Source: Cucumis sativus (taxonomy: Eukaryota > Streptophyta > Magnoliopsida > Cucurbitales > Cucurbitaceae). From it: a stretch of DNA of 64,000 nt. The position numbers and the translations under genes were made by a program. The notes under the pieces were generated by a model. That model worked only from the letters and a program-made list of their open reading frames with translations. It did not search any database and had not been told where the DNA came from. Positions 7,001 to 52,840 of the stretch are shown here, piece by piece; the first letter of the stretch is position 1, and each line of letters opens with the position of its first letter. The stretch lies in NCBI RefSeq assembly GCF_000004075.3, contig NC_026660.2, positions 372,001 to 436,000 of the forward strand, in the 5' to 3' direction.

Positions 7001-10000
7001 CTGTCAAAAGAAAGAGAAGAACTTGACGATGTGAAAAACCAAGTAAATGAAATGATGAAGGAGCTCCAAATTGCCCGAAATAACGGATTAAAATTAGAGA
7101 ACCAAATTGCACAATCTGATGAGATGGTGAAGGAGTTGGAGCAGAAGATCCTCTCAGCCATAGAACTGCTGCATAATTACAAAAATGATCGAGATGAATT
7201 GCTGAAGCAACGAGATGAAGCACTCAAAGAATTGGATGACATAAGGACAAGACAAGTAGAGGCCATGTCTCAACATAGTGCTCAACTAATCTCCGAATTC
7301 TCATTCTCAGAAATTGTAGAAGCGACCCGGAAATTTGATCCCTCCCTCAAGATTGTAACGGATGCAAATGGAAGCATGTATAAAGGCCTGCTGTATAACA
7401 CTGAGGTTTCCATAAAAATGCTCTGTTCTCATAACTTGCAGAATCCAGTAGACTTTCAACGTGAGGTATGAATAGCTTGATGCCTTCTAATCTTTCTGAT
7501 GAGTTAAAATATTTATTGTCATATATTTTTGCAGCTTGATGAATCAACTTTGAAGTTCCATAAATTCTACTAGGATCGTCTATCTCTTCTTTTTAAGAGA
7601 ATTCAAATGTTTGAGATGAATATTAATTTTTGCTTATGGAAATTTCTTTCATTTATTTCTTTAAGTTGTAGATATAAAAATAATAAATCTAATTGTGTTG
7701 AAGCATTTAACACAAGTCATTAATTCAAACCAGTATAGCTTTAACATATAGTTACATTAACTGATTAATTAACTAATATTAATTGAATTAATTAGTTTTC
7801 AAATATGATTACAAGTTTGTATATTGCTTTGTTAAGTCAGTCACCCATCAATCCAAAAACTTGAGTTGATAGACTATGGTAAATTAGATTATAGCAATAC
7901 TTCAATACTCTGACCCATGCTTTCACATTTAAGAAAAAAAGGAAATTTGTAGGAGGAAACTAATATTATTGTGGAAAAAAATTGACATTACAATAATTTG
8001 AATACAAGACCTCCTATTATGCTATTATGTTAAATCACATCAATTCAAAAAGTTTTGTGGTGATTTTGTGATACAGTTAGGTCCCAAATAAGAATAGAAG
8101 TCTAGAAGAATCCCATGTCAAGTCAATATCAAACATTTCCTTAACATATATTGTTTTATATGTTAGGTCGATGCATTGAGTAAGCTTAGGCATCCCAATA
8201 TTGCCACGCTCATTGGAGTCTGTCCCGAGGCTTGTATTCTTGTTTATGACTATTTTCCGAATGGAAATTTAGAAGATAGGCTAGCTTGCAAGGACAATTC
8301 TTCTCCGTTATCATGGAAAACTCGGATACTTATTGCTACACAGTTATGCTCAGCTCTTATATTTATTCATTCGAATAAAATTTGCAAGACCGTTCATGGT
8401 GACATGAAGCCTTCCAATATACTATTGGATGCAAACTATGTTCCTAAACTTGCAGGATTTGGAACTTGTCATTTTTTGACTCATGATGAAAAGTTGAGTT
8501 ACAATGAGAATTTATCTGTCGGATATGATGCGAAGAGGAATCATGAATTCCCTCTCACAACAGAGTTGGACATTTATTCATTTGGCACGGTATTACTAAG
8601 TTTGTTAACTGGAAAATCATACTTGAGGATGAAAGAAGATGTCCAGATCGCCATAAAGAAACGAAAATTGAAAGATGTATTGGATCCACGAGCAGGGGAC
8701 TGGCCGTTCGTGCAGGCTGAACAGTTAGCCCAGTTGGCATTGAGGTGTTGTGATACAGATAGTATGTACAGGCCAGACCTTGTGTCTGATGTGTGGAGAG
8801 TACTTGAGCCAATGAGGGCTTCTTGTGGAGGTTCACTATCAGTATGCCTAAGCTTTGGGGACCAGCAAGTGCAACCTCCTCCTTATTTCATATGTCCTAT
8901 TTTTCAGGTTAGTTAAATGCACAGTCCTCTCTTTATTGGCTCTTTATTCTTGCTTTGATGGCGTTTTAGTTAAAGAATATGTGTGAATGCAAATTTCTGT
9001 CCTGTCTCGTGTACGTTTCTTTCACTATTACTGCCACTCTTTTGTATATTTTTCTATGAACCCTCTTAGCTAACTGAAAGCTATCTTGAGTTGATTTTTT
9101 AGTCCTCTCCATGACTCTGGCTGTTTCTTAATACAGTTCTTTCATGGGGCCTTGGTTTAAATATACTGTTTGTACCAATACTTCCTACTTCTATGCTTTC
9201 TTTTTTTTCAGTTCTTAAAATTTAAGAAATCTTCTATTTTGGTATCTAAATTTTTAGAATCTCAATTTCAGTCCTAGAAATTAGCATCTTTCAGCCACTG
9301 TATTAGTTAATTTAGACTGACCTAACATCATCATTCACTGGACTTAATACTTCTTAGAGGCTAATTATTCTCCAAACATTAAATGATGAAATTGTTGAAT
9401 CCGCTAGATAGGGAGTGATTAAAACTTAAATGTGCAAGGCCCATTCGGAAATCATTTCATTTTTACTTCTTTTTTTCAAAGTTGCATTCTTAATGCAATT
9501 TTTTTAAAAAAAGTTAGGTTTTGAAAACTAATTTTTTTAGTTTTCAAAATTAGACTTGGTTTTAAAAAACATGAGTAAAAAGAGGATACCAAAGTAAGAG
9601 ATTTGCGGATAGAAAAATGTATGTATAGGATTTTTTAAAAGAAAAAACATAATAGTTACCAAAGGGGACCTTAGAGATCCTTACCATAAAAAAATTCTAG
9701 ATGTCGGAAGAGAAATGAAAATAGTATTTGAGTTTGGTTATTTCACTAGAAAATACATATTCTATGTACAATATCCAATACATCTAATAATGGATTAATA
9801 TTTCCACTCCCTCTATTGGCAAATACTCAGGAAGTCATGGAGGATCCTCATGTTGCAGCGGACGGGTTTACCTACGAGGCAGAGGCTTTGAGAGGATGGT
9901 TGGACAGTGGGCACGACACTTCACCGATGACAAACCTAAGGCTCGATCACCAAAACCTCGTCCCTAACCGTGCTCTTCGTTCTGTAATTCAAGAATGGTT

Positions 10001-14284: not shown

Positions 14285-17200
14285 ATGAATTCGCGGGGAG
14301 ATGTGATTACTACGGTACTTTTGGGTTTGATGCTGAGTTTGAGCTTGGTTTCAGCTGGGGATATAGTTCATCAGGACAGTGTTGCACCTACACGTCCTGG
14401 TTGTGAGAATAACTTCGTTCTGGTTAGTACTTGTGGTTCTTCTCTACTGCTGTTTTTTTTTTCTTTTAAAAAGTTCACTTAATTGGAGGTTTCAATTTGA
14501 ATTTCTTGTTCTTGGTACTTGAATTGTGTGGATTTGATGGTTGGAAAATCTGGGTATTTGCTTATTTGGCTATAAGTAAATTGGACGAACCCCTTCAGAG
14601 AAAGCGGGCTTAATTGAAGAAATGAAAAGTTGGGACTTGATGGTTTCGTGGTTTGTTTGTGATTTATGTGTCTGGTTTAGTTAGCTTATAGAGCTTCTTC
14701 ATTCAATTATTCCCTCTCTGTTTCTCTCCGTCTCTTAAATGTTTTTTATGATTCATCTTCTTCTTGTTTCTCAATTATTCCCTCAAATGTTTTTGATGAT
14801 TCATTTTTGCTCTTGTCTATTTGGCTGCTAACATGGTAACAAGAAACGAAATAAAACGATGCTTGTTTTCTATGCTGTCTTGTTATATGTATATACTGGC
14901 TGAGAACTAGAGTTAAGATAGATTCAATGGACGGAGATTCGAGGTAGAATTGATTTTTTGTTCAAACAGTGATGACTTTGAGGATGGTACTCAGTTTCTC
15001 CTACAATTATATCTGTGGCGATTTCATGTTGTAGTTCATTGATTTTCTGTTAAGGTGAAAGTCCCTACTTGGGTCAATGGTGTAGAAGCCACTGAATATG
15101 TTGGTGTTGGTGCACGATTTGGCCCATCCTTAGAATCAAAGGAGAAACATGCCACCCGCACTAGAGTTGCTCTGGCGGATCCTCCTGATTGTTGCAGTAT
15201 GCCCAGAAATAAGGTAAGATTTTCTGATATCTATTTTCCTTAATTTAGATATTAATAAGAAGTATGACTTGAAACATACATCGTATTGGTTGTTGGTTTT
15301 TTGTGTTGATGCATCTAAAGTTAAGTATACTTTAAAGTTCCATTAATTTGAAGTTGAAATGTTTGGTGTGCTTGTAGCTGGCTGGAGAGGTCATTTTGGT
15401 ACTTCGTGGAAATTGTAGTTTCACAAGTAAGGCAAATATTGCAGAGGGTGCTAATGCTTCAGCCATCCTTATCATTAATAACAGTAAAGGTATCAACATT
15501 TTCTTTTCTTATCATTCTTGTTATATTAAGCCATTGATGACAAAAGGATCTGAACAAACTATGACTAGAAATTTATGCATATCACTCTGCTACAAGAACT
15601 TTTGAGATAACTTTTTTTTTACAACGGTTGCAACAAGTTGTGGATATCTCTCATGCTCTTGTTAGTATTTTTACTATTTCAGTGCTTCAAAAACTGACCA
15701 AGAATTTATTTATGAAATGAGCATAACTTTCATACTCCTCAATGAAAGTTCCGTTTCCTATCTAAGAAAAAAAAAATTCGGGTAGGTAGTTCATACTCTA
15801 TTTATGTATAAATGCTTTTCTTTTATTTATCTCAATGAAAACAATTTCTCTAAGAGTCCTTATACTTTAGCTAGCTTGTTGTAAATTGTACGATTGAAAC
15901 TATGTTAGGTACCTAGATAAGAATATTAGTATTAAGTGGTATAAGGTAATTAGATGGAAAGGTATGCTCAAGAGGGAGGGTTCTCAAGTACCTTGAACTT
16001 GGATTATCTTGTATTTCTTCATAGTTATATTTCAATATATTCAGATCCGGTTCTTGTTAGGAAGTCTCCTAACAAACTACTGTGGTTTGCTTAACGTCAG
16101 CCTCTTTTCTGTCTTTTTTAGTTTAGATTTTTGTTGCCATTTGCAAGTTGTTGAATCTTTGGCCTACCATATCTGATATCACTTCTATAGTCCTTTCAAG
16201 TCCGTTTGGTTGATGAACGTTATTTTTCATAATTTTGTAACTGATAGAATGGTTCAACTGTCCATTCTGGAGTTTAGTTCTTAAATTCTTGTAAAAATCT
16301 ATTAAAAATTCTTTTTTGTTTTTTAAAAAATACAATTCCTTTTTTTTGTTCAGAACTTTTCAAGATGGTCTGTGAGGAGAATGAAACTGATGTAACCATA
16401 GGCATACCTGCTGTTATGCTCCCTCAAGATGCTGGTGAAAGCTTACAGAAGGATTTGAAGAGCAATATCTCAGGTGTGCATTTAATTTTGACCAATCTTG
16501 TGGTTAGCAATTCTTTTGTGTTTTATTCCCCCTTATATTCCATTTTAATCAATTTTAGTGCGAACTTACTTGTATTTCAGTATCTGTGCAACTTTATTCC
16601 CCGCTTCGACCAGTAGTAGATGTTGCAGAAGTATTTTTATGGCTTATGGCTGTTGGTACTGTCTTGTTGGCCTCTTATTGGTCTGCATGGACTGCAAGAG
16701 AAGTGGCTATCGAGCAAGATAAGCTGTTGAAGGTCCTATAGCTCTTCTCCAAATCTGTCTATTATTTCACATGAGTTTCTCCTTGGGTACTCCGTACTGG
16801 GTACTTTCTGAATAGTTGACGGACTTTACTCCATCTGCAGGATGGTTCAGATGAATTGCTGCAGATGGAAGCAACTGGTTCCAGTGGTTACATAGATATT
16901 AACACTACAGCAGCAATTCTATTTGTCGTGATTGCTTCATGTTTCTTGGTTATGCTCTACAAACTAATGTCTGCCTGGTTTCTTGATGTTCTGGTGGTTC
17001 TGTTTTGCATTGGCGGTGCAGAGGTTTGCCTATTCTTCTCTTTATTCTGGATGTTTAGATGGACAACTTGCTTTGTATCAATAAAAAAATTGTCTATGAA
17101 ATCTTGTGGATGTTGTGATGTCCAAAATTGAATCAATTTATTTTATTCACCAGTAAATTGTTTGAAGATGTCAGAATCTTCAAATGTTTGATCATCAATT

Positions 17201-20200
17201 AACAGGTACAAAAGAATTCCTCATAAAAAAAGAAAATTAAAATAATTTAACTTGTAGATGTTTTGAAGAACTTTTCTATAATTTAATTGCTTGAAAGTTT
17301 ATCTCTATGTGGTTGTATTTGTTGTTCATACTTTTTTTTTCTCTTCTGGGAGTTTGTATCTTTTAAACCTTTATTATTTTTCAGTACACTAACGAGAAGT
17401 TGTTTCTTGTTTTATATTTTTTAAAAAAGATATTTTAACAAATTTAAAATTTCAACTGGTGTGATGGGACTGAACCTCAGAATATCTATGTTCTCTAACA
17501 GGGACTACAAACTTGCTTGGTGGCTTTGTTATCATGGTACGTATCTTCCCTCACTTGTGCATGGTTCAATTTTTATAACTGCTTTGCTTAAGGAAGAAGA
17601 AGAAAGGAGTGTAGGTTCTCTCTCTCTCTCGTTTGGCATGCTATATTTTTTGTGAGCGTTTTGATATCAGCTTTGTGTAAACATGTGATATTTATTTTTG
17701 CATGGTTAGATTACTCTATAAAACTTATAGTTGAAAGATAAACGATAATGAAATTACAAGATAAACCAAGTTTTCGAGGTACTTAGACCCTCCCAATGTT
17801 AAGGTCTCTCTCAAATCCTATATCACTCACCAAAATATTGTTTGTCCTTCCCCATCCCCACTCCATCTATTTTTTTAAAAAAACCATCTATTTAAAACAA
17901 AAAATCTAAAAAACTTCCTAAATAATTACTAATATATCTTTATAATATTCCAATCAGCATACCTATCAGATACAATAAATAACGAATTAATGTTCAAATT
18001 AATTAATACCATTCAAATAATTATATAATTTAACTATGTACTAAAAACATATAATGTATTTCTATGGGTATCTGGGAAAAGAAAAGATGACATTTTGAAG
18101 TTTTTTGAATTTTTCCATAATATATATCTCTTTAATTTTTTAGTGGGATGAAACTGATGGCATAAGAACTATAGTTTCAGATGGTTTGAACATGCTGCTG
18201 AGTCATATATCAAAGTACCCTTCTTTGGAGCGGTGTCACATCTTACGTTGGCAGTTTCTCCTTTCTGCATATCATTCGCTGTTCTTTGGGCTTGTTACCG
18301 CAAAAGATCTTTTGCTTGGATAGGCCAAGATATCCTTGTAAGAAATCGCTATTTTCATTCTTCCAATTTGCTTGCTTTGTTGCCTTTTCATTTACATCTA
18401 AAATTTTCCCAAGTTGAGCCTCGAAAATTAGTCATCACTTATATTATTTAAAAATATATATTTTATTAAAAAATTTAATTTCAGAATAATACTCAATGCT
18501 CGAGTATTTATTCAGTTGTGATTTGCTCTCTTATCAACTTGATGTATAAATTTTTTACACCTTTCTTGGTATGGTTTGACTGGAGATTTTGTCTTCCTCC
18601 CTGCTCTTTAGTGTTCATTCTTCAGTAGAAGTTTAGTTGAAAAATCATCTGGTTTAACAGTGCATATCTTCTGAACTGGGACAACTCGTGGGTTTTCTTC
18701 TATAGCGGAAGCTATTTAGATCGAATAGGAAATTGAGGAAGAAAGTATTTTTCTGGGAGGATAAGTAAAAGCAGTTCATAATACAAGAGGATAAAATTAA
18801 GTTTACATAACCCTTTTGTATGCCCTTGAATTTTTTTGTATTTTTCTTGATGAAAGCTCGGTTTTTCCAGAAGAAAATTAAATTTACATAACCCATAGGA
18901 TTATGCTAAGGGTTGAATGGTAATTTAGCATGGTATTAAAGTAGGATGTTTTGTGTTTGAAATCATGTAACTTAGTTTCATCTCCTTCGCAGTTAATATA
19001 GACAACCACTTGTGCCCTTGTTCTAAATTCTAATTCCACAATTGCAAGTGAGTAAGAGTGTTAAAGTATTGATATAACATTCAATTAATAATAACTCATA
19101 AGTTTAAGCTTTTGGATTGAGTGTGATTTAACAATATGATATTGGAGACACACACTTACGGGAACGGGGTTAGAAGGATGTAGAACTCCCATGCATGAGC
19201 TTGGAAGAAGGAAGAGTGTGGCTTAAGAAGAGAAAAGAAAAGTTCTTGAACTCACTTCATCGTACTCCTTTTTAATTGGAAGTGGTCTAGTTTCTACTGC
19301 ATTTCAGCCTCTAAGATGTAGTGCCATGTTTATTTTGTCCTCCACATCATCCATCAAACTCCATGTTCCTTGCAGCGTACCTTTAGCACTACCTCTAAAG
19401 TCTAATCTCACTTCGGTAGATTTCCCAATCCTACCCTTACTCTGGTCTTTGGTCGCTTGTTTTTTCCACTCCTTTAAGAGTTTGTACTTTGTGTCTTTGA
19501 ACCTTTTTTATTTCTTCATTTTTTAAAATTATTATTATTAATACTTCTATTTATAGAAAAGTTTATTTTCTAAAAAAGTAATCAATTATTGTGATAATTC
19601 AAATTCTGAGAGTATATTTGGTCACCCCTTTTCTGTAATTATACATCTAAAAGAAAAATGATCTGGTCATGGTTATATGCCTCTTTGCGCCAACATTTTC
19701 GTGGATTGGTTCTTCTTCTAGTACTTTATTTCAGTGATGTTCAAGCTGCATTTTAGTCCCAAAGATTTGAATACTTTTAAAAAAGATGATAATTGATTCT
19801 CTTTCTAATATAAGAATATTTATGTCTCTTTGTTTCTGTTTTATAAACTTGAGACGATAAATTACAGATTTCTAAGAGACACTTCTATTAATAATTTAGT
19901 CGAAAAAATAATCTGCAAGCTCTGTGGTTTTAAATAACTTTCTTTTGTGGTTAATAATTCGGAACCTACCTATGGTTTGAAATGATTATCTTCTAGGTAT
20001 GTAATAGCTCTTTCACTATCCTAGGCTTTAATTTAGATACTTAAATATTAGAGACCCACATTAATGTTACAGTTCCATGCTTATATTTAGTTTGAGTTAT
20101 ATCACATTTACAAGATCCACTCATTTGTTTGATGTGATTTCTTTAAAATTTCATTGAAATGACTTCCTGTTCCCACTTTTATTCAGGGTATTGCGCTCAT

Positions 20201-21782
20201 AGTTACAGTCCTCCAGATTGTTCGAGTTCCTAATCTCAAGGTAATTTTTACAAAAATAAATAAAATTGTTTTAATTGTTGTCTACTATCTATAATTAACT
20301 TTGAGATCACAAGCAACTTCACATATATCAAATATAAGTGTCAATGTTACCATATCTTTTCTAGAAAGTGTTTTGCCCAACTAAATTTAAACTTAGGATC
20401 AGCTTTTTGTTATTTTATGCCTAGAAAATCCTTTTATTTTGCTAAATACCAGCTCTAAACCGTTGTGTGTACATCTAACAATGTTGTTGAAAATTCCCTT
20501 AGACTGATTTTTGGAATACGAGCATATAATTGGAAATTTTAGAAGAAAATGAACACTGGGTCTGGGTCTCCAATTCTAAGTATTCAATTTGTTCTCTGTT
20601 ATCAGGTTGGGACGGTGCTCCTCAGCTGTGCCTTCTTATATGACATATTTTGGGTATTTGTATCAAAATGGTGGTTCCACGAGAGTGTTATGATAGTGGT
20701 AAGTTGCTTGTTAAAGCCATCCCCATTTTCCATTGTTTTTCATACGCAATATTATTTGTTTTGAGACCTTGTCTTATTGTTGGGAATTCCAGGTTGCTCG
20801 TGGAGATAAGAGTGGAGAAGATGGTATTCCCATGTTGCTAAAGATTCCACGGATGTTTGATCCTTGGGGAGGGTACAGCATTATCGGATTTGGTGATATT
20901 ATCTTGCCAGGACTTTTAGTTGCATTTTCACTAAGGTGAAAGAAAGCTACAAGTACAACCTTTTCTTTTTGTTCCTACATTTAGGATTCAAGTAAGTTTG
21001 ACTTCAGTAGGTCAATATTAAACTGTCAAATTGGGCAACTTGGTGGTCTCAACTCAAAATATATGCCCACGCTCTCTCTCTCTGAACACACTGTCATCAG
21101 AAACTGTTGTACCATGCGGATAATTCCTAGCAATAGTACCCACTTGCATATGAAAATCTCTGCAAGTTCTTTTAATTGGAATGCAAGAGTTCTGATGCAA
21201 GTCACTCGTCCCTGGAACTAAATGGTGGATTGCCTCATTTGTGCAGATATGATTGGCTTGCAAAAAAGAAACTCCGGGCAGGTTACTTCGTCTGGGCAAT
21301 GACTGCTTATGGCACAGGTTTGTTAAACACTACCTGTTTTTCTTCTTTTTTTTTTTTTTCTGGAATCCTTTAGGGCTTTATCTTTCTTTTGTTGCTCGTT
21401 TGTGTTCTTCCTGTAATTTCGATAGGACACAACAAAAACCTGGGAGTAAACATTCAAAAGTTGATATTCTGAAGTTGGTCTTTGTTCATTTTGCATTTTA
21501 GGCCTACTCATCACTTATGTAGCTTTGAATTTAATGGATGGACATGGGCAACCAGCTTTGTTATACATTGTTCCTTTCACCCTTGGTAAGTAGCACGGTT
21601 CAATAACCGGATCTGCGATCCTACCCAACAAATCTAATTTGCTAAGAAAAACGATTGATTTGCTTGCAGGCACATTTTTGACTCTGGGAAAGCAAAGAAG
21701 GGATCTTAAGATTCTTTGGACAAGAGGAGAACCAGAAAGGCCTTGTCCACACATCCAACTCCAACCCTCATCTCAACATTAA
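14285..21782 (+). CDS. signal peptide peptidase-like intramembrane aspartyl protease with PA domain (SPPL2/4 type)
   Basis: There are fourteen exons: 14285-14422, 15055-15213, 15378-15489, 16354-16473, 16581-16732, 16841-17023, 17502-17536, 18175-18337, 20187-20240, 20606-20698, 20793-20935, 21247-21317, 21502-21585 and 21670-21782. They give 539 residues, matching plant SPPL2-5 (about 540). A hydrophobic signal peptide (about 1-24, ending VSAGD) is followed by a lumenal protease-associated domain (about 60-175, including [12 protein letters not shown]). About nine membrane spans follow. The presenilin-type catalytic motifs are all present: LYDIFWVF (YD), GFGDIILPG (GxGD) and QPALLYIVP (PAL). 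The enzyme should cut type II membrane proteins within the bilayer in the endomembrane system. Exon 8 uses the acceptor AG at 18173-18174, because the nearby AG at 18179-18180 would create a stop. ATG 14285 is the first start that opens the signal peptide. Confidence 0.95.
18930..19145. repeat. decayed retrotransposon/LTR-like remnant in SPPL intron 8
   Basis: The intron from 18338 to 20186 is by far the longest of this gene. It contains 'tggtattaaagtaggatg' at about 18933, resembling the TGGTATCAGAGC primer-binding site of Copia elements. It also contains 'taagcttttggattgagtg' with 'gatttaacaatatgatattgg' at about 19107-19144, which resembles the paired repeats at 44042 and 44236. Assignment to an LTR family is inference. 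Confidence 0.35.
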
Positions 21783-25814: not shown

Positions 25815-28800
25815 ATGGCCACTCAGAATAAACCCTCCAAATTTCGCTCAATTACCAGTTGCTCCGGCACGGAGTACGAGTCCATTGCTGCCGATCTCGA
25901 TGGAACGCTACTCATTTCTAGTAGTTCTTTTCCCTACTTCATGCTCGTGGCGATTGAAGCCGGTAGCCTTCTTCGTGGCCTCATTCTGTTGCTTTCGCTT
26001 CCGATTGTGATAATCGCTTACTTGTTCGTGTCTGAAGCTATTGGAATCCAGATCCTCATTTTCATCTCCTACGCTGGCCTCAAAGTTCGCGATATTGAAC
26101 TCGTCTCCCGCGCTGTCTTGCCTAGGTAAGATCTAGACTCAATCGGTTATTACAGAAATCAAGCTATTGATCTTATATAGGTTCTTCAGGAAACTGTGAG
26201 CCATGTGTTTTCATTTGTTGATCGTATTATTATACTTTTTTCTATCTCCAAATGGAAGGAACCGAAGTTCAACTATAGTAGTTAAGTGCTTAATCTGTTT
26301 TGAAGTTGGAGGTTTCTATCTCCGTTCAGAAGTTTCGTTTATAATTTTAAGAATGAAAGAAAATTAAATATCACAGAACAGCAAAATATGCTAATATGCT
26401 TTTATTTACAACCTCAATACTAAAACTGTGCCATTAAAACTCTTCGAATTTAAGAGTGCATTTCTTAGACTGATAATGGATGGAAATTTTGTGGAGGTTT
26501 TACGCGGCGGATGTGAGGGCAGAGAGTTTTGAAGTGTTCAGCAAATGTAAGAGAAAAGTGGTGGTGACGGCAAATCCAACGATTATGGTGGAGCCATTTG
26601 TAAAGGATTTTCTCGGGGGAGACAAAGTTTTAGGAACAGAAATCGAAGTGAACCCTAAGACGAAAAAGGCCACCGGGTTCGTCAAGAAACCAGGAGTTAT
26701 GGTCAGCAAATTGAAGAGATCGGCTATTTTGAAAGAGTTCGGTGAAAATTTGCCGGATCTTGGCATCGGCGATCGCTCTTCCGATCACGATTTCATGTCC
26801 ATTTGCAAGGTACGCCCCTCATTATTCTCCATTTAATTTCTCAGCCCTAACTATATTTAGGGTTTATTAACCTATGCATTGGATATATAATATGTTTGTT
26901 TAATTACTATTCGAGTATGTAATTAACATTGTAATTAATATAAAAGAATTTTAAAATTTGGAAACTAACACACCTCTTAGCATAGATTATAGATCTATTA
27001 ATGATCGTGTTTATGATCATTTATGAGAGTATTAATTTTGGTATATAAATTCACTAGTTGTGTTGGTTTTTAATTTTAAAAAATTAAGCATATCTGGCTA
27101 ATTAAATGTTATAACAACATATCCTTTTCAAATTATTTTATTTCTGTCTAACTTCGTTAAGATTGAACAATTAATGATACTCTCAAAATCAATTTTATAA
27201 AACTATATGATATAGATCCTATCTTATTAGCTAAAAAGAAAACACAAATAGAAATGAGGTTCATAAATGCTTGAGAATCATGGACTTGTAGGCATCGAAT
27301 TGAATCTCAAAGGACCCACCAATGTAAAGTCTGCCCATCCCCCTAATCTCTCATATCCACCTCATGGGTTGCAACTTTTTAACAAAATTGAGTGGTTCAA
27401 ATTAAAGTCTTTAATACAAAAAAGAAAAAGAAAAATACTTTGACATTTTTATTTATTTATTTATTTATAATACTTTATATTAATGTAGCCCTCTCTATTA
27501 ATAGATCAACCAGAGGAATGAATGCATACCAACCGAAGCAGAAAGTAGATTAATTAATATTAGTGGCTCCAGTTTTTTATTTATTTATATTTTCTAATCA
27601 ATATTACAAATATACATTTAAAATATTTTATTAGTATATGAGATGTGATAAAATTAAAATCACCTTTAACAAACAATTAAATAAAATCAAGCATATAGTA
27701 ATATTTTTAATAATTTTAAATATTTGAAATATAGTAAAATCTTGATAGTGGTCCATTAATGATAAACTTATATTATTAATAGACTTTGATAATTTTTGTT
27801 ATTATGTTTTCTATGTCTAACTACCTTGAAAAATAACAGAAGCTCTGTATAATATTATTTTCATCTGATTTACAACTCCCAGAACATAATTAAATTTGTC
27901 AAAATTAATTAGGGTACTAATTTATATGGAAGATTATATAGGTTTGATTCAGATGATCTCATCTCCTTACTTGGAACACGAACAATACATAGTCTTACTG
28001 ATGATCTGGCTTATTAATTCCGTATTATTCATTATCTATATTGCAAAATTCAATGGAATCTTGCTAAATATTCAGGGAAGTATTGTTGTTGAAATAGTAA
28101 TATATATAAACTTTGTTGTGCGTTGGGATACTTTTGCAGGAAGGGTATATGGTGCCCCGTAGCAAAACAGCAAAGCCAGTTCCACTAGATCAACTTAAGA
28201 GCAAGATCATCTTCCATGACGGCCGCCTAGTCCAGCGTCCCGACCCTCTCAACGCTCTCATCACCTTCATATGGCTCCCCTTCGGCTTCATCCTCTCCAT
28301 CATCCGCGTCTACTTCAATCTCCCCCTCCCCGAGCGAATTGTCCGCTTCACCTACGAGCTCCTCGGCATCCATCTCCGCATCCGTGGCAACCCTCCTCCT
28401 CCCCCATCTCCCGGAACTCCTGGCAACCTCTATGTCTGCAACCACCGCACCGCCCTTGACCCCATTGTAATTGCCATTGCCCTCGGCCGCAAGGTCTCAT
28501 GCGTCACCTACAGCGTCTCCCGCCTCTCTCGCTTTCTCTCCCCCATACCCGCCATTGCCCTCACTCGTGACCGTGCTGCCGATGCTGCTCGCATTACCGA
28601 ACTCCTCCAGCATGGGGACCTCGTTGTCTGCCCCGAAGGAACGACGTGTCGTGAGCCGTTCCTCCTACGGTTCAGCGCACTGTTTGCAGAGATGAGTGAT
28701 AGAATTGTCCCAGTTGCAGTGAACTGCAAGCAGAGTATGTTCTACGGGACGACAGTGAGAGGAGTGAAGTTCTGGGATGCGTATTACTTCTTCATGAATC

Positions 28801-29018
28801 CGAGGCCGGTGTACGAGGTGCAGTTCCTGGACCGGTTGCCAGAGGAGATGACGTGCAAGGGAGGAGGGAAGACATCGATCGAGGTGGCAAATAATGTGCA
28901 GAGGATGCTGGGGAGTGTGTTAGGGTTTGAATGCACAACGCTGACGAGGAAGGACAAGTACATGTTGCTTGGAGGGAATGATGGGAAGGTAGAATCTATG
29001 TACAATGCCAAGAAGTAA
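25815..29018 (+). CDS. glycerol-3-phosphate sn-2 acyltransferase, GPAT4/6/8 (cutin) clade
   Basis: The exons are 25815-26125, 26497-26809 and 28140-29018, giving 500 residues; Arabidopsis GPAT6 is of the same size and similar sequence. The N-terminal HAD-like phosphatase domain keeps DLDGTLL (27-33) and GDRSSDHDF (195-203). Hydrophobic segments lie at about 40-90 and 246-265. The acyltransferase blocks are NHRTALDP (309-316), EGTTCREPF (374-382) and IVPVAVN (397-403). Known GPAT4/6/8 enzymes transfer omega-oxidised acyl groups from CoA to the sn-2 position of glycerol-3-phosphate, then dephosphorylate to 2-monoacylglycerol, the cutin precursor. GPAT5/7 (suberin) lack the key phosphatase residues. 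Because those residues are present here, a cutin-type bifunctional enzyme at the ER is the best call. ATG 25815 fits the family N-terminus; an in-frame ATG at 25782 would add 11 residues. The neighbouring CYP86A gene is convergent and acts one step earlier. Confidence 0.95.
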
Positions 29019-31770
29019 TAATGTAATGTAACAACGAAATCATAATATTTGATTTTAGAGGGATATTAATATTGGCAAAACTCAACTACTCAACTGAGAT
29101 GTGGGATTTGTTTGTGTGTTTGGGATTTTGGTTAAGAAAACACTGAAAAATGTATTGTAGGTTTTAGCCATATAGATGATATGTTTTTGCACTAAAGTTG
29201 GTCCAAGGATTTCATAATAACTATAATCAATGTTTTTTCTTATGCTTTTCTTCTAATTTGGTTTAATTCATTTTAACCTTTTTTTTTTCCCCTTAATTCT
29301 TAATTACGTGGGGTTGAGGAGATATTAGTTTTTAGTTTTTGAAAATTAAGATTATAAACTCTCTCAATTTTTAATATTTTTAGTTTTTATTTATTTATTT
29401 CTTATCGGTATTCCAGCTAAAAATACAATTTTTATACTAATAAATGTAAATCAGGTAAGAAATTGAAAAAAAAAAAAAAACTTAATTTACAAAATCCAAA
29501 ACCAAAAAAAAAACAAAATAGCTTTATTATTGTTTAACCTAAACTTTTGTTCATAACCCTAAACCCTACAAATCAAACCCTTTCTCTTATTTAATTTATG
29601 GTTCCACCATTTGTACGAAGTTAATTAAATCACACCTACATTTGTGGAAGGAGGAAGAAATGTGAAATTTGGTTGATGATGAGAGAGGTTTAAAATATAT
29701 AAAAGTGTGTGTTTTTTAGTTTCTTAGGGTTTTATATATAAAATCACTTACACACTTTTTAACCTAAAGATGAGTAATAATTGAGAGAGCACAATGCCAC
29801 AACCTCCTTTCTTGTCTTAGCTTCTTGCCCCTATTGTATTTCTAAGTAAAACCTCCAAACTTAAGTATTAAAATTAGATAAACCATATATAATATTATAT
29901 CAATGCAACCTTTATTGATGATTTCACATCTTCTCTTCAGTCCACACTATCTTAAACTCATGTGTGTCTATATCTATATGTATATAGTTTCAATGTTTTA
30001 TACCTCACCGTATGGGTAAAAATATTTTGTATCATATTGACTGACAACAACAAACATTGTCTTGTTAGCTTAAGAATGAAAAAAAACACACACACGAACC
30101 TCGACTCGACATGCCACGTTCTCTCTGCAAGAATCCAATGATTCCATTGTATAGTTGATATACATAAATATGGATATACAATATATAGAGAAATATATAT
30201 ATAGAGAGAGAGAGTTAAAAAAGAAGAAATTATATTTAAGAAAGTTGGTAGGAATAATGTGTGTGTGGCCGCTGGTACATTACATATAATTCCTACTCCC
30301 TCTTGCCCTTATTTAAGACACCTTTTAATAAAAGAGAATACAATGATACCATCAAATAGGGGTTGGGTTCTACATTTTCCTTATTATTTAATTATACTAC
30401 AATTTTCATTTTAGAAATTTTACTTCTTTTATATATAGTTTACCTCTAAACATGATTAGTAGTAGTACAAATTTTGTTTCAAGTTTTTCGTTTTTAAATT
30501 TTGTTTCACTAAAAAGTGTAAGAGTAAATTAGTGTTTGGAAACTTTTTTCCGCTTTCTTGTTCATTTTCCAAATAATAATGCTTGAAAATATGAAGTTTT
30601 TGAAAAGTTTTGAAAACTTACTTTTGCTTTTGTCAATCAGATTTTAATTATTCAATCAACTTCAAGTCACTCTCGATATATAGCATACAAGAACGAAAAA
30701 AAAAAAATCCTAATTAATAACGTCATTTGTTTTTTTATTTTTTATATATCTATAAATTTGTTTTAGTTTTGGTTTTTGAAAACTAAATTTATAAACATTG
30801 CATCCACACCTATAACTTTATTTATTTCATTGTTCACTTTCTAACCATTCTCTTAAAACCCAAACTAAAAAAATAAGTCCAACACTTTTTTTTTACTAAA
30901 AAAATCTATTTTTTCTCTTCATGTGTATTTTAAAAGGTTGACCCTATAAATTTTAGGAGGAAACAAGTCATTAAAACAGAACACCAAAGGACCTACAATT
31001 GTTAGTATTTCTTTTAAAAGATTTAATTCTTACAAAAAAAAAAAAAAAAACTCATTAAAAAAGTATATAAAGGAATTAATGTTTATAAGATTATTTAATA
31101 TTCAAAATAAAAAATAAAGTAGTTAACCAAATGAAAGCATGATTTTTGAAAGACTTTTCCAGATTTGAAATTTGACTAATAAAAACTGGAAACAAAAACA
31201 ATAATAAAAATTGAATTAATAATAAGAAGATATATTGTGAAGCTCATGAAATTAAATAACATTAAAAACTGAAATGAAAATGCAGATGAAGGTTAGGAAA
31301 AGAGAAAAAGAAAAGGTAGGATAGATACATAAAGACAAATGAGTTGATTAAGTTGATAAAAAATCAACCTCAGTATAGAAATAAAAATTTGCTAAGAACA
31401 ATTATTACAGAAAAGAAAAAAAGGGAAAAAGAAAAACATTCAACCCATTTTTAATAAAAACAAACATGAATTAAATGGCTATTTTTAAATTTAAAAAAAG
31501 AAAAAGAAAAAGAAAAAAGATCCCATTAATTCCCACTACACCTCTCTCCCCCCCACCCTTACATGACCGACTTTCATCACAGTCATGGTAATTTTATCCC
31601 TTTTCCCTTCAATCCCGTGTAATGAAAGACACTTTAAATACCTGACCGGCGCGTGTTCCCCATTCGCCGTTGCTTGGGTCCACCTCATATATAAAAATAT
31701 ATTTTTTATTATATTTTTATAAATTAACCTCTCTTAACTTTACCGAACCACCAATCACGCCCTTACCATT
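29019..31770. other. convergent spacer between GPAT and CYP86A genes
   Basis: 2.75 kb separates the two stop codons. It holds both 3' ends, poly-A/T tracts, a TA/GA microsatellite at about 30,197-30,215, and fragments of the dispersed 'gttttgaaaactaa' repeat (about 29,325-29,400 and 30,720-30,890). No further gene is visible between the two. Confidence 0.7.
30720..30890. repeat. dispersed MITE-like repeat, copy between GPAT and CYP86A
   Basis: This copy includes 'tttggtttttgaaaactaaa', 'tttataaacattgcatccac' and 'tctcttaaaacccaaactaa', the same vocabulary as the copies near 9540, 58380 and 62470. A partial copy is seen near 29,325. It is non-coding, and its ends are not resolved. Confidence 0.45.
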
Positions 31771-33414
31771 CTACTTCATTCCGTTACATCCTCCGTTACA
31801 ATTCACAACCGTGATTAACGGACTATCTTTCCCTTGCGAATTCCCGTATTTGCCCCTCATACTCTCCACAATTCCCTCCAAATTCCTCTTGTGAATGTTC
31901 ACCTTCAGTCCGTACTTCATAAACAGCGTCAATGACATTTTTTGTTCCACTTTGTGCCCCGCCGCTACTGTCAGCCGGTGCCGGAGTAGCACAGCTGCTG
32001 CTATCGACTTCATTTGTAAATACGCTAAGTCCTTCCCTAGGCAGATTCTTGGCCCTGCATTGAACGATACGAATTTGTACGGATCATACGCTATGAATTT
32101 CGTTCCATCCGCTGTTAACCATCGCTCAGGACGGAATTCGAGGCAGTCTTCTCCCCATGTCGACTTCATTCTTCCGGTGGAATAGATTGAATACGTTACC
32201 GATGATCCCGCCGGAACGAAGGTTCCGTCCGGCAGAATGTCGTCGGCGACGACGTGTTTGGAATCTTCTGGTACCGACGGGTAGAGTCTTAGGGTTTCGG
32301 TGAGAGCGGCTTTGAGATAAATCAGACGGTCGATCTCTTCGAATTCTAAAGGTTCATCGAGCCATGATTGGATGTTGTTTCCACGTGTCTCGATGAGAAC
32401 CGTGCAGATCTCACGGAGGATTTTTTCTTCAATGAGTGGGTTTAATGTTACCAACCAGAAAAACCAGCTCAGCGCTACGGATGACGTGTCACGTCCAGCT
32501 AGGATGAAATTAAGCGCCACATGGCGAAGAAACGCGTTGGAGTAATTACCATCCTTTTTCTTCATGAACCGTGAGAGTAAATCATCGTGTGGTGTGGAGT
32601 CCTTAGGCTGATTCAGCAACTCCAGCTTACGTGAATCAATCACACTAGATAAATACTCCTCAATATGAACTAAACTCCGGCTCAAGCTGACTTCCATCCC
32701 TAGCCGAAGCCACTTTTTGAATTTCCAAAGCACTTCCGGTAGAATAAACCGTTGCAACGAAGCTTCCGTGGCTCGATCGAAAGCCATAGCAAAGCCATTT
32801 TCGGGGAAACCGGGGGCACAAGTCATTGGATCTTTTCCAAAAGCCAAACCACAAATATTATCAAAAGTAAGACGTAATAGTACATCTTGAAGATCAATGG
32901 GGTGAGAATTCAACTCAGCTTCTTTGAGAATAGGGCAAAATCGCAACTTAATAGCGCGGCTAACCCAACGAGCCATGGCTTGACGAAGAGTCCTGGTAGT
33001 AAATTCCAAAGCAGCAGTTTTTCTTTGGAAAAGCCAGGTATCACCGTCGGAGTTAAAAATGCCTTGACCAAGCAACTCGTGAAAAACAGCTTGCCAGGTG
33101 GGGCCTTTGGGGTAATTATCGAATCGGGTCTTGAGAATATGTTCGAGATTTCTCGGGTCACACGTGACAGTAACGAGGCCTTGCTTTTTAGCGAAGAAAG
33201 GGAAAGCCCAGATGCAGGTTTGGTAGGTGCCGCCACAGGCGCGGAGGTTATCGGAGATCCAATCATGCAACCGGTCGCAATTTTCGATTAACCCAGGGAG
33301 GCTGCCGAGCAACGGCCACATTTGAGGGCCTTTTAACGACCGTGAAATGAAAGTAAACCAAAGAAGATACGCCGTTACTGCTGTTACTATAACTAAAGCG
33401 AATCCCACGTCCAT
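31771..33414 (-). CDS. cytochrome P450, CYP86A-type fatty acid omega-hydroxylase
   Basis: A single uninterrupted frame of 547 residues, the usual CYP86A length, runs from ATG 33412-33414 to TAG 31771-31773. An N-terminal membrane anchor (about 4-23) is followed by a full P450 domain: I-helix AGRDTSS (306-312), K-helix ETLR (373-376), FRPERW (427-432) and the heme loop [10 protein letters not shown] (451-460) with Cys458 as the thiolate ligand. CYP86A enzymes at the ER hydroxylate the terminal carbon of C16/C18 fatty acids for cutin and related polyesters. The frame stays open upstream to 33822, but a TATA-like box at 33687-33693 lies between that ATG and the chosen start. The region is low complexity, and the family N-terminus begins at MDVGFALV. 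The convergent neighbour is a GPAT that would use its products. The CYP86A subfamily is confident; the member is not resolved. Confidence 0.95.
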
Positions 33415-33816: not shown

Positions 33817-36408
33817 AAACACACCTAATTATGCAGAAAGGAGGAGGAGGGTGTTAAATTGGAGCATTGAATGAAGAGGCCAAATTTAATGGGTTTAGTT
33901 GAGGAACTAAGGGCCAACTACACATATACCACAACACAACACCATGGAAATAAGAGATTTTGTAAAACAAAAGTTAAGTTACCAACTTTTACTAAACTCT
34001 TTTTGATTTCTAATTAACTTAATAAAATAATCACTCAATAACCATATATGTCTATGGCAAATTACCTAATATATATATATATGTGTCAATTATTCCTATA
34101 TGGTTTAGTAGATATGAGAGTACAATTATTAATAAGAAAAGCTTCCCTGGTTTGATCAACTTTTCATATTTATTCAACTAAAAGAATTAGAAGAAATGGT
34201 ATTGGAGGGCATCCCAAAATCTACCAACTAAAACAAACATAGTTCAATTGGTATAGAATATTATAGAATATTTGAAGAGGTTGATGTTATTCATATATAA
34301 ATATAATGACTATTTTTTTGTTTTAAGAAAAAAGAAAGGAAGAAATATATTATTTTGAGTACTTGAAAACAATATGATTATTTAAAAATAAAAGAATGAA
34401 AAAAGATAGAAAAAAATGAATGGAAATGAGGTTTATCATGTGGGCTATAGGTAATGGTTGGTTGAGCCATAACACACCAAACTAAAATCAACCATTTATA
34501 CCTTTACTTTTCCTCGTGAATTAAACTCTTTTTTTTTCTTTTCTTTCTTTCTTATAAATATATTATTTTGTTTTAATTTGGGAAAATATGTTGGGGCTAT
34601 CCATTTATTGTATTTCTGTAGATTATTATTATAAATATAATGATAAATATTATGTGGGGCTACAAAAGTATAGTATAATTGAGACAAAAATATATTATGA
34701 ATTATTGGGTTAGTAGTTAGTGTGTAGTTATGGTTAAATCAATTATTATATACGAGTTTATTTAATTACAAGTTATTACCTTATACCCCTAGCTGGTTAA
34801 CCATTACCTTACCCCAAATCTTTCTTTATTATTAACTTAATTATTTACTATTCGTGATTATCCCTTTTCTCCATTTATTGATTATTTCAAACATATATGA
34901 TATTTGAGGAGGACTTTTTTGAGTTCAAACTTCTCTTTTTAAGTTCAATACAATCATCTAATTGATAGGGGTGTGTTTAAACTTACTTAATAACCCCAAC
35001 AATACTTACTCTATACTCATCTTCCAAGCCAACCAAGGTTAGGAATGTAGTTGAAGTAGTCCCGAGGAAGTTGAGAAAACTCCAACCCAGTTCAAGAGAA
35101 CCGTACGTGTTATCAACTAATAAATATTTCATGCAAAGATGAAGGTGGAGGGGGTTGACTTTGTTGATCTGCAAAGGAACATAGTTTTGAATGTTATTAT
35201 TAAAGTTGAAAAAGAGGGATAAAACTATGTGCTAAGTAAGAGATGAGAGTAAAAAGTCAAAGGGAAATAAAAGCCAATTGAAAATAGTAAATTTAGTTAT
35301 TACTATAAAAGACTGTTTTTCTTTTAATATATATCTTTGTTTTCTCGAGGCAGAGTGTTAATATTATTGTGAATATATATGAAGAAAACAGAGCGTCAAA
35401 CCTAATATATTGTTCCATTCATTTTTGCTTTTGCATTTCCTTTTACTCTCTTCCACGTGTCTGCATGTGCATGCATTCAATTTCAAGGTCAAATTTTGTA
35501 TTCAATGAAGCCATTACATTACATTATATTATATATGTATATGTGTGTGTGTGTGATTTTTCAATCATAGTTATTATATATAATTATCGTTGGAGTGGAT
35601 TTATCTCTTCATAATCATAATATATATGGGATATAATTAAGTTTGAAGTATTTCTTTTTCTCTATTCAGCTTAATTATATAGAATTGACGATTAAAAAAA
35701 ATAAGAAAAAGTCATTTAGGTGTCCCTTTGGATTTATATAGTTTTGATTTGGTATTTTCGATTTTCAAATGAAGAATATATATTGTGTGTATTTGATTGG
35801 TTGCAAAGTTTGACTTTTGAGATAGTGTGATGAATAGTAAAATATGTTAAAGATATAAGACAATATAGCCAACCATAAAGAAAAAATGTAAATTCAAATT
35901 TAAAAAAAAATGATTGTAAACAACAATATTGAATAGGATGGTAGACAAAACAATCACATATCTTCTATAAAAGAATCATCAATATATCACATTGTGGGTA
36001 AAATGAAAGCATTTGAATTAATATACTGTATAAATACAAAGAATAAAAATAATGGCTGAGATTCACTAGTGAGTTCAGCGGTGCAAGGGGTGTTGGGTGG
36101 TGGTGTCGGCTGAAGGAGAGAAAGATGGATTTCGGACGTGTCGTTGATGAAAAGTCTCGTCGTTTCTGACATGTGTGAGAGATGGAGAGAAATTGTTAGC
36201 AGAATGGAAGAAAAATCGAGAAGGAGGGTCGACGCGTGGATATTCCATAAAGAAGAAGAGGAGGATGAGGTAGAGAAAGGGTTTTGAAGATGTTTTATTT
36301 AAATAAATAAATTATTTAATGTTTTTAGAATTAGAAAAAAATCTAATTTTAATAAACTTTTGATTTAAATAATAAATTATTTTTTTGTATATTTTATGAC
36401 ACCAAATA

Positions 36409-36551
36409 ACTGTCACGGAAAATAAAATTAGAAAAATTACGTATTTTTATGTCAAAAATGCGTTTTTTTTAGCTTTTTTGACAGTTTTTTCTTTTCTCCT
36501 TTCAGTTTGGAATGTATATAACCGTGATAGTAAGTAGTTTTTCTTGTAGTG
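36409..36551. mobile_element. possible CACTA (En/Spm-like) transposon end
   Basis: The segment ends 'ttcttgtagtg', which on the minus strand reads CACTACAAGAA, the typical terminal inverted repeat start of plant CACTA elements. Inside it, 'ctgtcacgg' near 36,413 and 'ccgtgatag' near 36,521 form a near-perfect inverted pair, as subterminal repeats do. I did not find the matching opposite terminus, so this may be a solo end or a heavily rearranged copy. Confidence 0.4.
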
Positions 36552-38667
36552 ATTGCGTATGATTAAGTTGTTTTTAATTCAACATTTTAAGTTTTGGTGA
36601 ATAATTAGAGTTAAAATTTGAGAGAGATTGAATAGGAGAGCAAATACTCGTCTTTATCGTTTGTCAATTTGTGATTGAGTTTTGGATTCCAAAACGTGGT
36701 TTAATTAAGTAAAAGGAATGACTAATGAAGAAGCAGATCAAGTCGACTAAACCAACTAAGAATTTAATTGTTTAAAGCATTTTAGTTTATAAACTCAAAT
36801 AAGAGAAGGTGCATACTACTAAAATAACAATTTCACCAAAAAGTATAACCAAAATCATATTTTAAATAAGCAAATATACCCTTTTTCTTCAAAATTGTAA
36901 TAGGTAAGCTAACCTATGTTTTCTTCTTTATTTTGTTTTTTAGAATATGGTATTTTATGTTCAAAATTTCATAGCTATAGCTATAACCATATTTAATTGA
37001 TATTTACTACTCAATTTAGACCATAGTTTACATCTCTAAAAAAATCCAATTAAACACCAATTATATATTTATTAGTACATATATAGGATCAATATAATTT
37101 CAATTTAACCCATACTTACAATTGTGAGATCTTATTTCATGAATTGCAATCTTTAATGAGGTTAATTATTTATTCGAGGACCATCATTTGATCATTAATT
37201 AAGGTCTGATTATTTGAAATTTTGAAATAAAAAGATTAAGAGGGTTAATTAATTAGATTGGTGGTTTGATTAACAACCCAAACAAAATTTGACACCAAAG
37301 TTAGAGTAGATAAAGTTGCAAACTCCAAATTGATTTGATTATGTAATTAATTAATTGGAAAATTGAATGACGATGATAATTAATTATTTAAATATTGAGA
37401 TCTCTTTTGTATATTAAAAGATAAAAGAATAAAATAATTAATTAGAGTCAAACTTAGGAATCCCAATTTATTCAGACATTGGCCTTTCGTGCACACAAGA
37501 TTATTATCCAATTTTGTTGTAAAAGTTAGGTAAAGATTAATCATTAATTAGAAATCCTATAATATAAATGCTTTCTAGTTTTGATTATATTTGCAATTCA
37601 TAATATAAAGTCTTATTGACCAATAATTTCCTTTTAACACTAATTACCAAACTAATTAAACATCCTTTGATTTGTCCCAAAAGAGAGAAAAAAAGGATTT
37701 CTTAGTGAGATATGTTGTATGCTTCTTAAGTCCTAAATTAAGAAATTATATTAAGGTGTTCTTTTTTAAAAAATTAAAAAATCTATTAGTGATGGAGAAA
37801 TAATAACAAATAACATTAATTATTTTTTTAAAAGAATAAATAAACTAACACTCTAAAAAGTATATATAACGTGATTTTGATATCTAATGAGTATATTTTG
37901 TCAACAACAACGTCGTTGATTTTGGCTCGTTCGTTCTTATATACACGCCACTTAATATAGACATTCATGATCAACTCATATCTATACCTTTATGACTCAT
38001 GCATCATTTAATTTACGATATGTGTTTTGATACCTCACGTAAGAGATTTATTAATTCATCAAAATTACTTTATAGTTACTTTAGTGAGAAAAATGTGTGT
38101 TGGTTAACACTAATAGATTGTCGTATAGAATGGGAAAAAATTCACTGGCTAAGTTATAAAAATATTGAAAAAGAAACTACTGAATTTATTTAAAATTTGA
38201 ATTTAGTGAAAATAAAAAGGAAAAAAAACGAGAGATTAGTACAAGAACAAACATGTTAGGTAAAAAGCACTTCAAGAATATAGAGAGAAGTTTATTGTTC
38301 TTCTAATATGTTATCTATTTTACCATCTCTTGGAAGCACTCCTCATTTGATCAATTTACTCTCAGGTCACCTCGGTCGAGCTAACACTTATTTTTATATA
38401 GTTCATCCTAATGTCTAATCACAAGTTTACATGTGATAAACTTTTTTCAAAGTAGTGTATGTATGTAGGTATGTATGCATATATATAAAATTTCTCTATA
38501 TTTTATTGATGGAATGTATATAAGAGATAGATGTACCTCGACATTGTTTTTTGCTTATATATATCCTACTTGAAACTTAGTTGTTCATATTCTTATGTTC
38601 TTTTATACTTTATGATTGTTTCAAAATGACTCTTTCAACAACTTTGTCGTTAAAATGAAGTTGAATA

Positions 38668-38782
38668 AGAGGTTTGTGGTCAAGTGAGTTAGTTTAGCTT
38701 GGACGTAATTGACATGCACTTCCTCCTTTGAAATCGGAGGTTTGATAATTCACTTTTGTAATTGTTATACTAAAAAAAAAAA
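38668..38782 (+). repeat. SINE-like dispersed repeat with A-tail
   Basis: The segment reads 'agtgagttagtttagcttgg', then 'gaaatcggaggtttgataat', and ends in an A-run at 38,772-38,782. The first part resembles a pol III A box and 'ggaggtttgataa' resembles a decayed B box (GGTTCGAATCC). That layout fits a tRNA-derived SINE. Target-site duplications were not resolved. Confidence 0.4.
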
Positions 38783-43167: not shown

Positions 43168-43193
43168 CACACGTGTTACTCTACACACGTGTT
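43168..43193. promoter_or_regulatory. pair of CACACGTGTT motifs
   Basis: Two identical CACACGTGTT strings lie 16 nt apart (starts 43,168 and 43,184), each containing a palindromic G-box core. No gene start is recognisable nearby. They may belong to an old retroelement LTR promoter, since LTR-like repeats lie 0.9 kb downstream. Confidence 0.3.
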
Positions 43194-44041: not shown

Positions 44042-44296
44042 ATTATATTAAATTTACTTTCACCTATCAACTTAAGCTTTTGGGTCACTTAATGATTTAA
44101 GATAGTATAAGAGCAAGTTGCTTTAGGATGTCCTGAGTTCAAGCCCTTGCAACTTTATTACCTCCCAATTTAATGTTAATTTCACTTGTTGGACCTTTCT
44201 TAATATTTCAAGTCCACAAGTAAGGGGAGTGGAATATTATATTAAATTTATTCTCACCTACCAGCTTAAACTTTTGGATCAATTGATGATTTAAGA
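44042..44296. repeat. two 61-nt direct repeats with primer-binding-site-like motif
   Basis: Copies at 44,042-44,102 and 44,236-44,296 align over their full 61 nt with about ten differences; both begin 'attatattaaattta' and end 'gatttaaga'. 'tagtataagagca' follows the first copy directly, close to the TGGTATCAGAGC primer-binding site used by Copia elements (complementary to initiator Met tRNA). This suggests LTR-derived sequence. A third relative lies near 19,107. Confidence 0.5.
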
Positions 44297-52817: not shown

Positions 52818-52840
52818 TGTTTAATTCCAAAATTGCCAAT

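Follow-up and report, generated by a model that had tools for sequence, protein, structure and literature searches.

Why should two enzymes that act in succession in cutin synthesis be encoded next to each other in the cucumber genome? Within the window analysed here, a stretch of 64,000 nucleotides from Cucumis sativus (contig NC_026660.2), a putative glycerol-3-phosphate acyltransferase (GPAT) gene and a putative CYP86A gene lie tail to tail at 25815..33414. A sequence-only reading had drawn attention to this pair as a candidate for an arrangement not previously described, and had offered a small metabolic cluster, shared chromatin control or chance as explanations. The observation itself is confirmed. 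As for its origin, we consider it probable that the two genes are local copies of ancestral GPAT4/8 and CYP86A neighbours that belong, together with a signal peptide peptidase-like (SPPL) gene, to a block conserved in angiosperms, and that their closeness was passively inherited.

Results

Two complete genes in convergent order

The first gene (25815..29018, + strand) has a coding sequence of three exons, 25815-26125, 26497-26809 and 28140-29018, joined across two GT-AG introns; this was the sole solution within the splice-site ranges searched, and it gives a product of 500 aa with no internal stops. The product combines the HAD-like N-terminal domain and the acyltransferase domain that characterise land-plant GPAT4/6/8 proteins (Pfam HAD_RAM2_N, PF23270, E = 2.3e-59; HAD, PF12710, 1.2e-21; Acyltransferase, PF01553, 3.4e-08). 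Both phosphatase motifs, DxDxT and GDxxxD, are intact (DLDGT at residue 27, GDRSSDHDF at residue 195), and so are the acyltransferase blocks (NHRTALD at 309, PEGT at 373 and VPVAV at 398). To our knowledge, the two phosphatase motifs are missing from GPAT5/7. The best reading of the gene is a GPAT4/8-type sn-2 glycerol-3-phosphate acyltransferase/phosphatase rather than a GPAT6, an assignment based on genome neighbours and presumed Arabidopsis sequences and not on a tree. Identity to what we take to be AtGPAT4 extends to 394 of 500 residues, as against 315 of 496 for what we take to be AtGPAT6, and an SPPL gene lies nearby, as at the sesame GPAT4 locus; these leads, short of a tree, make GPAT6 the less likely identity. 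The Arabidopsis couple that had been cited as precedent, CYP86A4 and GPAT6, is therefore a poor fit to a locus where the neighbour appears GPAT4/8-like; moreover, Arabidopsis GPAT6 (At2g38110) lies far from CYP86A4. Published names are in conflict here: PMC5913721 gives At1g01610 as GPAT6 and At4g01950 as GPAT4, and labels At2g38110 GPAT3, whereas At1g01610 is GPAT4 in PMC6617593 and in a sesame table. With regard to gene structure, one paper reports a single intron in most of GPAT1-8 and three in Arabidopsis GPAT4 and 8.

The second gene (31771..33414, - strand) is a single exon running from an ATG at 33414 to a stop codon ending at 31771, and encodes 547 aa that match the Pfam p450 model (E = 6.6e-60). 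The heme-loop cysteine, the ExxR motif and the I-helix threonine are all present, with AGRDTS in the I-helix (306), ETLR (373), PERW (429) and a ten-residue heme loop (451). By sequence, the nearest solved structures are plant LUT5-type P450s and CYP4B1. Members of the CYP86A subfamily are recognised by more than 55% identity to other members, and 415 of 538 residues (77%) are identical to a sequence that we take to be CYP86A2. We regard the gene as CYP86A-type, a predicted fatty acid omega-hydroxylase, a name derived from neighbours in other genomes and presumed Arabidopsis sequences and not from a tree. Might one or both genes be non-functional, or belong to some other subfamily, so that the cutin reading fails? 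The library models do name only P450 and HAD/acyltransferase domains, which leaves the finer assignment to presumed Arabidopsis sequences and neighbours, but both reading frames are open over their full length, the splice sites are regular and the catalytic motifs are those expected, which makes this extremely improbable.

The two genes converge, with 2,752 bp between their stop codons. The intervening stretch (29019..31770) is AT-rich (GC 26.8%) and contains no recognised gene: its longest ATG-initiated ORF is only 50 aa, its longest stop-to-stop ORF (116 aa, - strand) lacks a Pfam match, and neither Rfam at the gathering score nor ARAGORN found an RNA or tRNA gene anywhere in the 64-kb window. 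Splice and ORF, Pfam and motif data thus uphold the identities, completeness, order and spacing originally proposed for the pair.

Further upstream, on the + strand, lie an SPPL gene of several exons (15378..20924 from first to last matched fragment; one match to the PA domain and two to Peptidase_A22B, all fragmentary) and the protein kinase and U-box exons of a PUB-type kinase gene (8167..9980; Pkinase and U-box Pfam matches). The latter gene presumably begins near 3991-6238, where joining the upstream ORFs is our assumption, as is its membership of the conserved block; Pfam gave no informative match for these ORFs. Also recognised in the window were ORC5, a SUV3-like helicase, a cysteine-synthase-like gene and a DUF3245 fragment; FRO2, PIP1 and an AT4G00370-like transporter were not. 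Repeats beyond the P450 (33900-45500) comprise a single direct repeat of 61 nt and a single, weak inverted pair, and a Pfam scan of 9 of the 14 stop-to-stop ORFs of at least 70 aa returned a single sub-threshold match. A plant metabolic gene cluster is, as a working definition, at least three non-homologous pathway genes side by side. With two cutin genes among those recognised, the locus falls short of such a cluster, in a scan of 30 ORFs or proteins that a small or split third pathway gene could escape.

Linkage of the two families in other species

Plant genes do shuffle, and on that general ground the adjacency could be a coincidence that arose in this lineage alone. However, when we simulated random order among 30,000 genes, about 0.07-0.2% of the genomes placed a CYP86A directly beside a GPAT4/6/8 gene, and about 0.4-1% had the two within five genes of each other (with copy numbers assumed to be 4x3 and 6x5). 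In addition, the link recurs elsewhere, as read from published locus numbers and tables. In PMC13408256, CYP86A4 (64473392-64475747) and GPAT4 (64476239-64478855) are consecutive on Brassica napus A09 (BnaA09G0695600ZS and 0695700ZS), and the mapping table places FRO2, CYP86A4, GPAT4 and PIP1-3 in one 49-kb interval. The same two families are thus adjacent there as well, with about 0.5 kb between gene models rather than 2.75 kb, but flanked by FRO2 and PIP1-3, neither of which we recognise in the window.

In poplar, a GPAT8-like gene (Potri.014G085500) and a CYP86A4-like gene (Potri.014G085800) are similarly linked by locus number, although with two locus numbers in between (PMC9102228). Four separate SlGPAT4 (Solyc01g094700) from CYP86A68 (Solyc01g094750) in tomato, again unlike the adjacency seen here; one of the two papers treats these as suberin genes and the other as cutin genes (PMC10808073, PMC5526902). 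In rice, Os01g0854800 (P450 86A7-2) and Os01g0855000 (GPAT) likewise stand a few locus numbers apart, and their MSU numbers both occur in one QTL table; this is probably the same kind of pair. The rice GPAT is filed in the GPAT6 subclade (PMC5913721), a label to be used cautiously given that the same source conflicts on GPAT4/GPAT6 names; in view of this placement, the rice pair may not be the same by descent. Sesame deviates, with GPAT4 in the block but no CYP86A listed; SPPL4 lies two gene numbers from GPAT4, FRO2 is also in the block, as in B. napus, and the run has no U-box gene.

Strict adjacency among the species compared is therefore confined to cucumber and B. napus, and the expectation that orthologues be linked in other genomes holds in B. 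napus, poplar, tomato and probably rice, but not for the sesame block as listed. In light of this recurrence and the low random frequency, a chance origin in this lineage alone is very improbable and no longer a live option, and the suggestion of an undescribed arrangement does not stand as worded. In open-access literature, a paper examined for a prior description of the pair uses none of the terms cluster, collinear and synteny, and a search by cucurbit locus prefixes found no paper, results that do not establish absence from print. Cucumber is not alone in having the pair, which looks like old inherited order rather than a new arrangement. A listing of duplicate pairs classes CYP86A4/CYP86A2 as alpha and CYP86A4/CYP86A8 as beta, so that the locus has been copied by genome duplications. 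With FRO2, PIP1 and the AT4G00370-like transporter unrecognised in the window, and the sesame run without a U-box gene, homology of the block rests on SPPL and the pair.

Expression and promoters of the linked partners

A fresh coincidence being unlikely does not amount to selection, because inheritance explains the adjacency equally well. Nonetheless, linkage might have been kept by selection, as a two-gene metabolic module under joint chromatin control or for the co-inheritance of compatible alleles. The recurrent linkage speaks for such a module, and some expression data do too: the two tomato partners share their restriction to one edge of the exodermal trajectory (PMC10808073, PMC5526902) and both rise after feruloyl glyceride, and both poplar partners are induced in wounded bark (PMC9102228). 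In the peel of a cucumber mutant, a CYP86A2-named gene and CsGPAT4, which may or may not be linked, are among 28 cuticle genes that are down.

On the other hand, cuticle genes at other loci respond likewise in the same data sets. In leaves of a glossy B. napus line, CYP86A4 is up 4.32-fold while the adjacent GPAT4 does not change significantly; of 12 rice samples, 10 have a reading of zero for the P450 whereas every one shows expression of the GPAT. Sesame, as noted, retains GPAT4 without a listed CYP86A, and unrelated neighbours are retained in the block too. The anticipated sharing of expression, which along with a common chromatin domain would mark a metabolic gene cluster, is thus seen in tomato and poplar, fails in B. 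napus leaves and is weak, if there at all, in rice.

The 1.5-kb stretches upstream of the two cucumber genes have few words in common, namely six of 12 bases, all AT-rich, in a comparison made without a control; this, too, argues against a module. We also searched both stretches and the gap for seven patterns (L1-box, ATML1, GCC/SHN-like, DRE, two MYB-like and one HD-like), with 200 mononucleotide shuffles per stretch and 21 tests in all. Only the MYB-like MACCWAM stood out from its shuffles. It occurs 11 times in the gap (shuffle mean 2.3, reached in 0 of 200), five times upstream of the P450 (mean 1.3, 3 of 200); the GPAT upstream stretch has three (mean 1.6, 47 of 200). Across the window as a whole, dinucleotide-preserving shuffles averaged 84.9 against 109 observed, a count reached in 4 of 100. 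The richest 2-kb bin starts at 28001 (10 occurrences), but the bin from 12001 has 8, and those from 36001 and 52001 have 6 each. The excess in the gap is relative to mononucleotide shuffles, and we do not take MACCWAM as evidence of a shared promoter signal.

Taken together, we regard a module held by selection as unlikely. We are equally doubtful of its bolder form, in which CYP86A and GPAT4/8(/6) make up a very old polyester module, perhaps predating the monocot-eudicot split, that was copied by genome duplication and held together for co-expression in barrier tissues.

Discussion

The biochemical logic that makes the pair attractive is sound. The P450 would omega-hydroxylate C16/C18 fatty acids at the ER; CoA activation would follow, and the GPAT would then acylate glycerol-3-phosphate at sn-2 with the hydroxy- or dicarboxy-acyl group. 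The phosphatase domain of the same protein would release 2-monoacylglycerol, which would be exported to build cutin (and suberin). Most likely, each is driven by its own promoter and answers to regulators common to unlinked cuticle genes, and an old gene order carried through whole-genome duplications would suffice without a cluster mechanism. Retention of the unrelated SPPL and FRO2 in the block is what passive synteny predicts, and the lack of a joint response in B. napus leaves fits a passive link too. Keeping in mind that selection would also produce linkage in four species of distant orders and joint expression in tomato and poplar, we favour passive inheritance.

Even a passive link matters for mapping. 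The rapeseed interval qCWA9.1 contains both genes, so that position by itself does not tell which of the two underlies a cuticle trait there; that study turned to sequence and expression (PMC13408256). If the link were instead selected, metabolic gene pairing would reach from specialised compounds to a polymer that serves land plants as a structural barrier, and breeders would have a two-gene target for cuticle and suberin traits. An old selected module would count among the most ancient metabolic gene pairs that plants have kept.

How does the locus compare with known gene groupings of the cuticle? The wheat W1 / barley Cer-cqu beta-diketone wax locus is a true biosynthetic cluster. It brings genes of a cuticle pathway together, as here, but its enzymes and its product differ from those of the GPAT/CYP86A pair.

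A convergent GPAT-CYP86A pair

The window is flowering-plant nuclear DNA, judged from its gene content. The GPAT gene, a predicted sn-2 acyltransferase/phosphatase gene on the + strand (ATG 25815, end 29018; exons 25815-26125, 26497-26809 and 28140-29018), encodes 500 aa and has a single open splice solution with GT-AG introns within the splice-site ranges searched. The P450 gene is a single exon on the - strand, running from 33414 to 31771 and encoding 547 aa, and the two stop codons face each other 2,752 bp apart, exactly where the sequence-only reading had put the pair, with starts at 25815 and 33414. The longest ATG ORF in this gap is 50 aa, and the one long stop-to-stop ORF there (116 aa) has no Pfam match. 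The window as a whole gave no Rfam hit at gathering score and no tRNA.

Pfam places RAM2-like HAD, general HAD and acyltransferase domains in the GPAT protein, where phosphatase motifs and acyltransferase blocks are also found; the P450 has the I-helix, ExxR, PERW and heme loop signatures. The sequence-only reading had picked out a real feature and the right pathway. Among solved structures, the top sequence matches of the P450 are plant LUT5-type P450s and CYP4B1, with no CYP86A-named structure among the best 60 of 168 matches. Compared with Arabidopsis reference sequences, the P450 is 77% identical to CYP86A2, and GPAT is identical at 394/500 positions to GPAT4 versus 315/496 to GPAT6. The subfamily names GPAT4/8 and CYP86A are putative and stand on these comparisons and on gene neighbourhood, the two weaker legs of the assignment.

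Both proteins would most likely work in series at the ER: CYP86A would carry out omega-hydroxylation, a LACS would activate the product with CoA, and GPAT would perform sn-2 transfer and dephosphorylation, giving monoacylglycerols for cutin or suberin. The order CYP86A, LACS, GPAT is established pathway knowledge, here applied to predicted proteins. Because the genes are convergent, with upstream regions on opposite outer sides, the DNA gives no hint of a shared promoter; any cis effect on the pair would have to go via a common chromatin domain.

Neighbouring genes and block history

Upstream of GPAT, the + strand also carries an SPPL-type signal peptide peptidase gene (15378-20924; PA and A22B fragments), preceded by a kinase/U-box gene (8167-9980, +). 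Arabidopsis gene order would put the latter in the conserved block; AT4G00370 is PHT4;4. In Arabidopsis, At1g01600 (CYP86A4) adjoins At1g01610 (GPAT4) on convergent strands, and At4g00360 (CYP86A2) and At4g00400 (GPAT8) are separated by a few genes. For the consecutive sesame genes SIN_1009954-1009961, the best Arabidopsis hits are SPPL4, SK21, GPAT4, the major facilitator AT4G00370, an SNF2 protein, UBC5, RHB1A and FRO2; the U-box gene is absent from this run. The hits spread over Arabidopsis chromosomes 1, 2, 3 and 4, the pattern that genome duplications of a single ancestral block would leave. A Brassica P450 study pairs CYP86A4 with CYP86A2 as alpha duplicates and with CYP86A8 as beta duplicates, and the names of At1g01610, At4g00360 and At1g01600 are backed by the literature (PMC6617593 is one source). 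In B. oleracea, the BAC ends that match At1g01600 and those that match At1g01610 map to C8a, weak evidence because the C8a label also spans matches from At1g04 to At1g07.

Elsewhere in the window, a fragment at 1696-1947 (+) matches DUF3245 (E 2.1e-08). Between the P450 and ORC5-like genes, 33900-45500 is about 12 kb of AT-rich sequence without a recognised gene; it contains a 61-nt direct repeat (44042 and 44236), and nine ORFs scanned there gave no match above cut-off. Beyond it lie the ORC5-like origin recognition complex gene (45588-47611, -; AAA_16 and ORC5_C matches) and an open frame of 796 aa with SUV3/DExH18-type RNA helicase domains (50430-52820, -). Fragments starting MGDLYALDFDGVLCDSCGESS at 55296-57621 (+) resemble a plant HAD-family protein; the two that were scanned (55296-55400 and 56473-56670) have no Pfam match. 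A cysteine synthase-like gene spans 61430-63640 (+), its fragment 63102-63344 matching cysteine synthase models; fragment 61430-61612, which has no Pfam match, is tentatively joined to it. A homologue of Arabidopsis CYSC1 (At3g61440) at this place would suit the duplicated block.

GPAT-CYP86A linkage in other species

Five species had usable locus numbers (B. napus, poplar, tomato, rice and sesame), and four of them show the GPAT-CYP86A link, in a sample that is not random, the tomato, rice and Arabidopsis numbers having been looked up as already known loci. The literature consulted comprised PMC10808073, PMC5526902, PMC11049243, PMC5913721, PMC6692341, PMC6620220, PMC8066911 and PMC3276173, and further PMC9102228, PMC6617593, PMC9437717, PMC5604286, PMC13408256, PMC10818446 and PMC10750367. 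CYP86A4 and GPAT4 of B. napus are consecutively numbered within a nine-gene interval of 49 kb (PMC13408256), and the pairs are Potri.014G085800 and Potri.014G085500 in poplar (PMC9102228) and Solyc01g094750 and Solyc01g094700 in tomato (PMC10808073, PMC5526902). For sesame, the consecutive numbers 1009951-1009961 include GPAT4 and no listed CYP86A; an unannotated CYP86A is possible because the table gives genes with variants and their best Arabidopsis hits. Rice Os01g0854800 corresponds to LOC_Os01g63540. The former is named P450 86A7-2, and the latter, a P450, shares one QTL table with LOC_Os01g63580, that is Os01g0855000, a GPAT put in the GPAT6 subclade (PMC5913721). The linked rice GPAT is filed under GPAT6, whereas its linked counterparts in eudicots go by the names GPAT4 or GPAT8. 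This points either to two links of separate origin or to an older arrangement followed by differential loss.

The sequence-only reading had proposed the arrangement as a candidate for an undescribed one. This is too strong, since public locus numbers show GPAT-CYP86A neighbours, and PMC13408256 tabulates both side by side; treatment of the pair as a cluster was not met in the passages surveyed. The simplest account of the pair is passive inheritance of an old block. Selection for linkage of GPAT and CYP86A is possible. The evidence on joint expression is mixed. In tomato, expression of SlGPAT4 and of the linked CYP86A is confined to the same exodermal-trajectory edge, as is that of several suberin genes elsewhere (PMC10808073), and feruloyl glyceride raises both genes among many others; the poplar pair is induced during wound suberisation, along with genes at other loci (PMC9102228). 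In B. napus leaves of a glossy line, CYP86A4 rises 4.32-fold and the adjoining GPAT4 does not change significantly (PMC13408256). The rice P450 stands at 0 FPKM in 10 of 12 samples, whereas all 12 show expression of its linked GPAT; the two genes peak in pre-emergence inflorescence. Two further cases are uninformative on linkage: the 28 cuticle genes with lowered expression in a cucumber glossy line include CsGPAT4 and a gene named CYP86A2, and ATT1 (CYP86A2) and GPAT4 of Arabidopsis, which lie on different chromosomes, increase jointly in seed (PMC6617593). Joint expression is therefore neither constant in linked pairs nor special to them.
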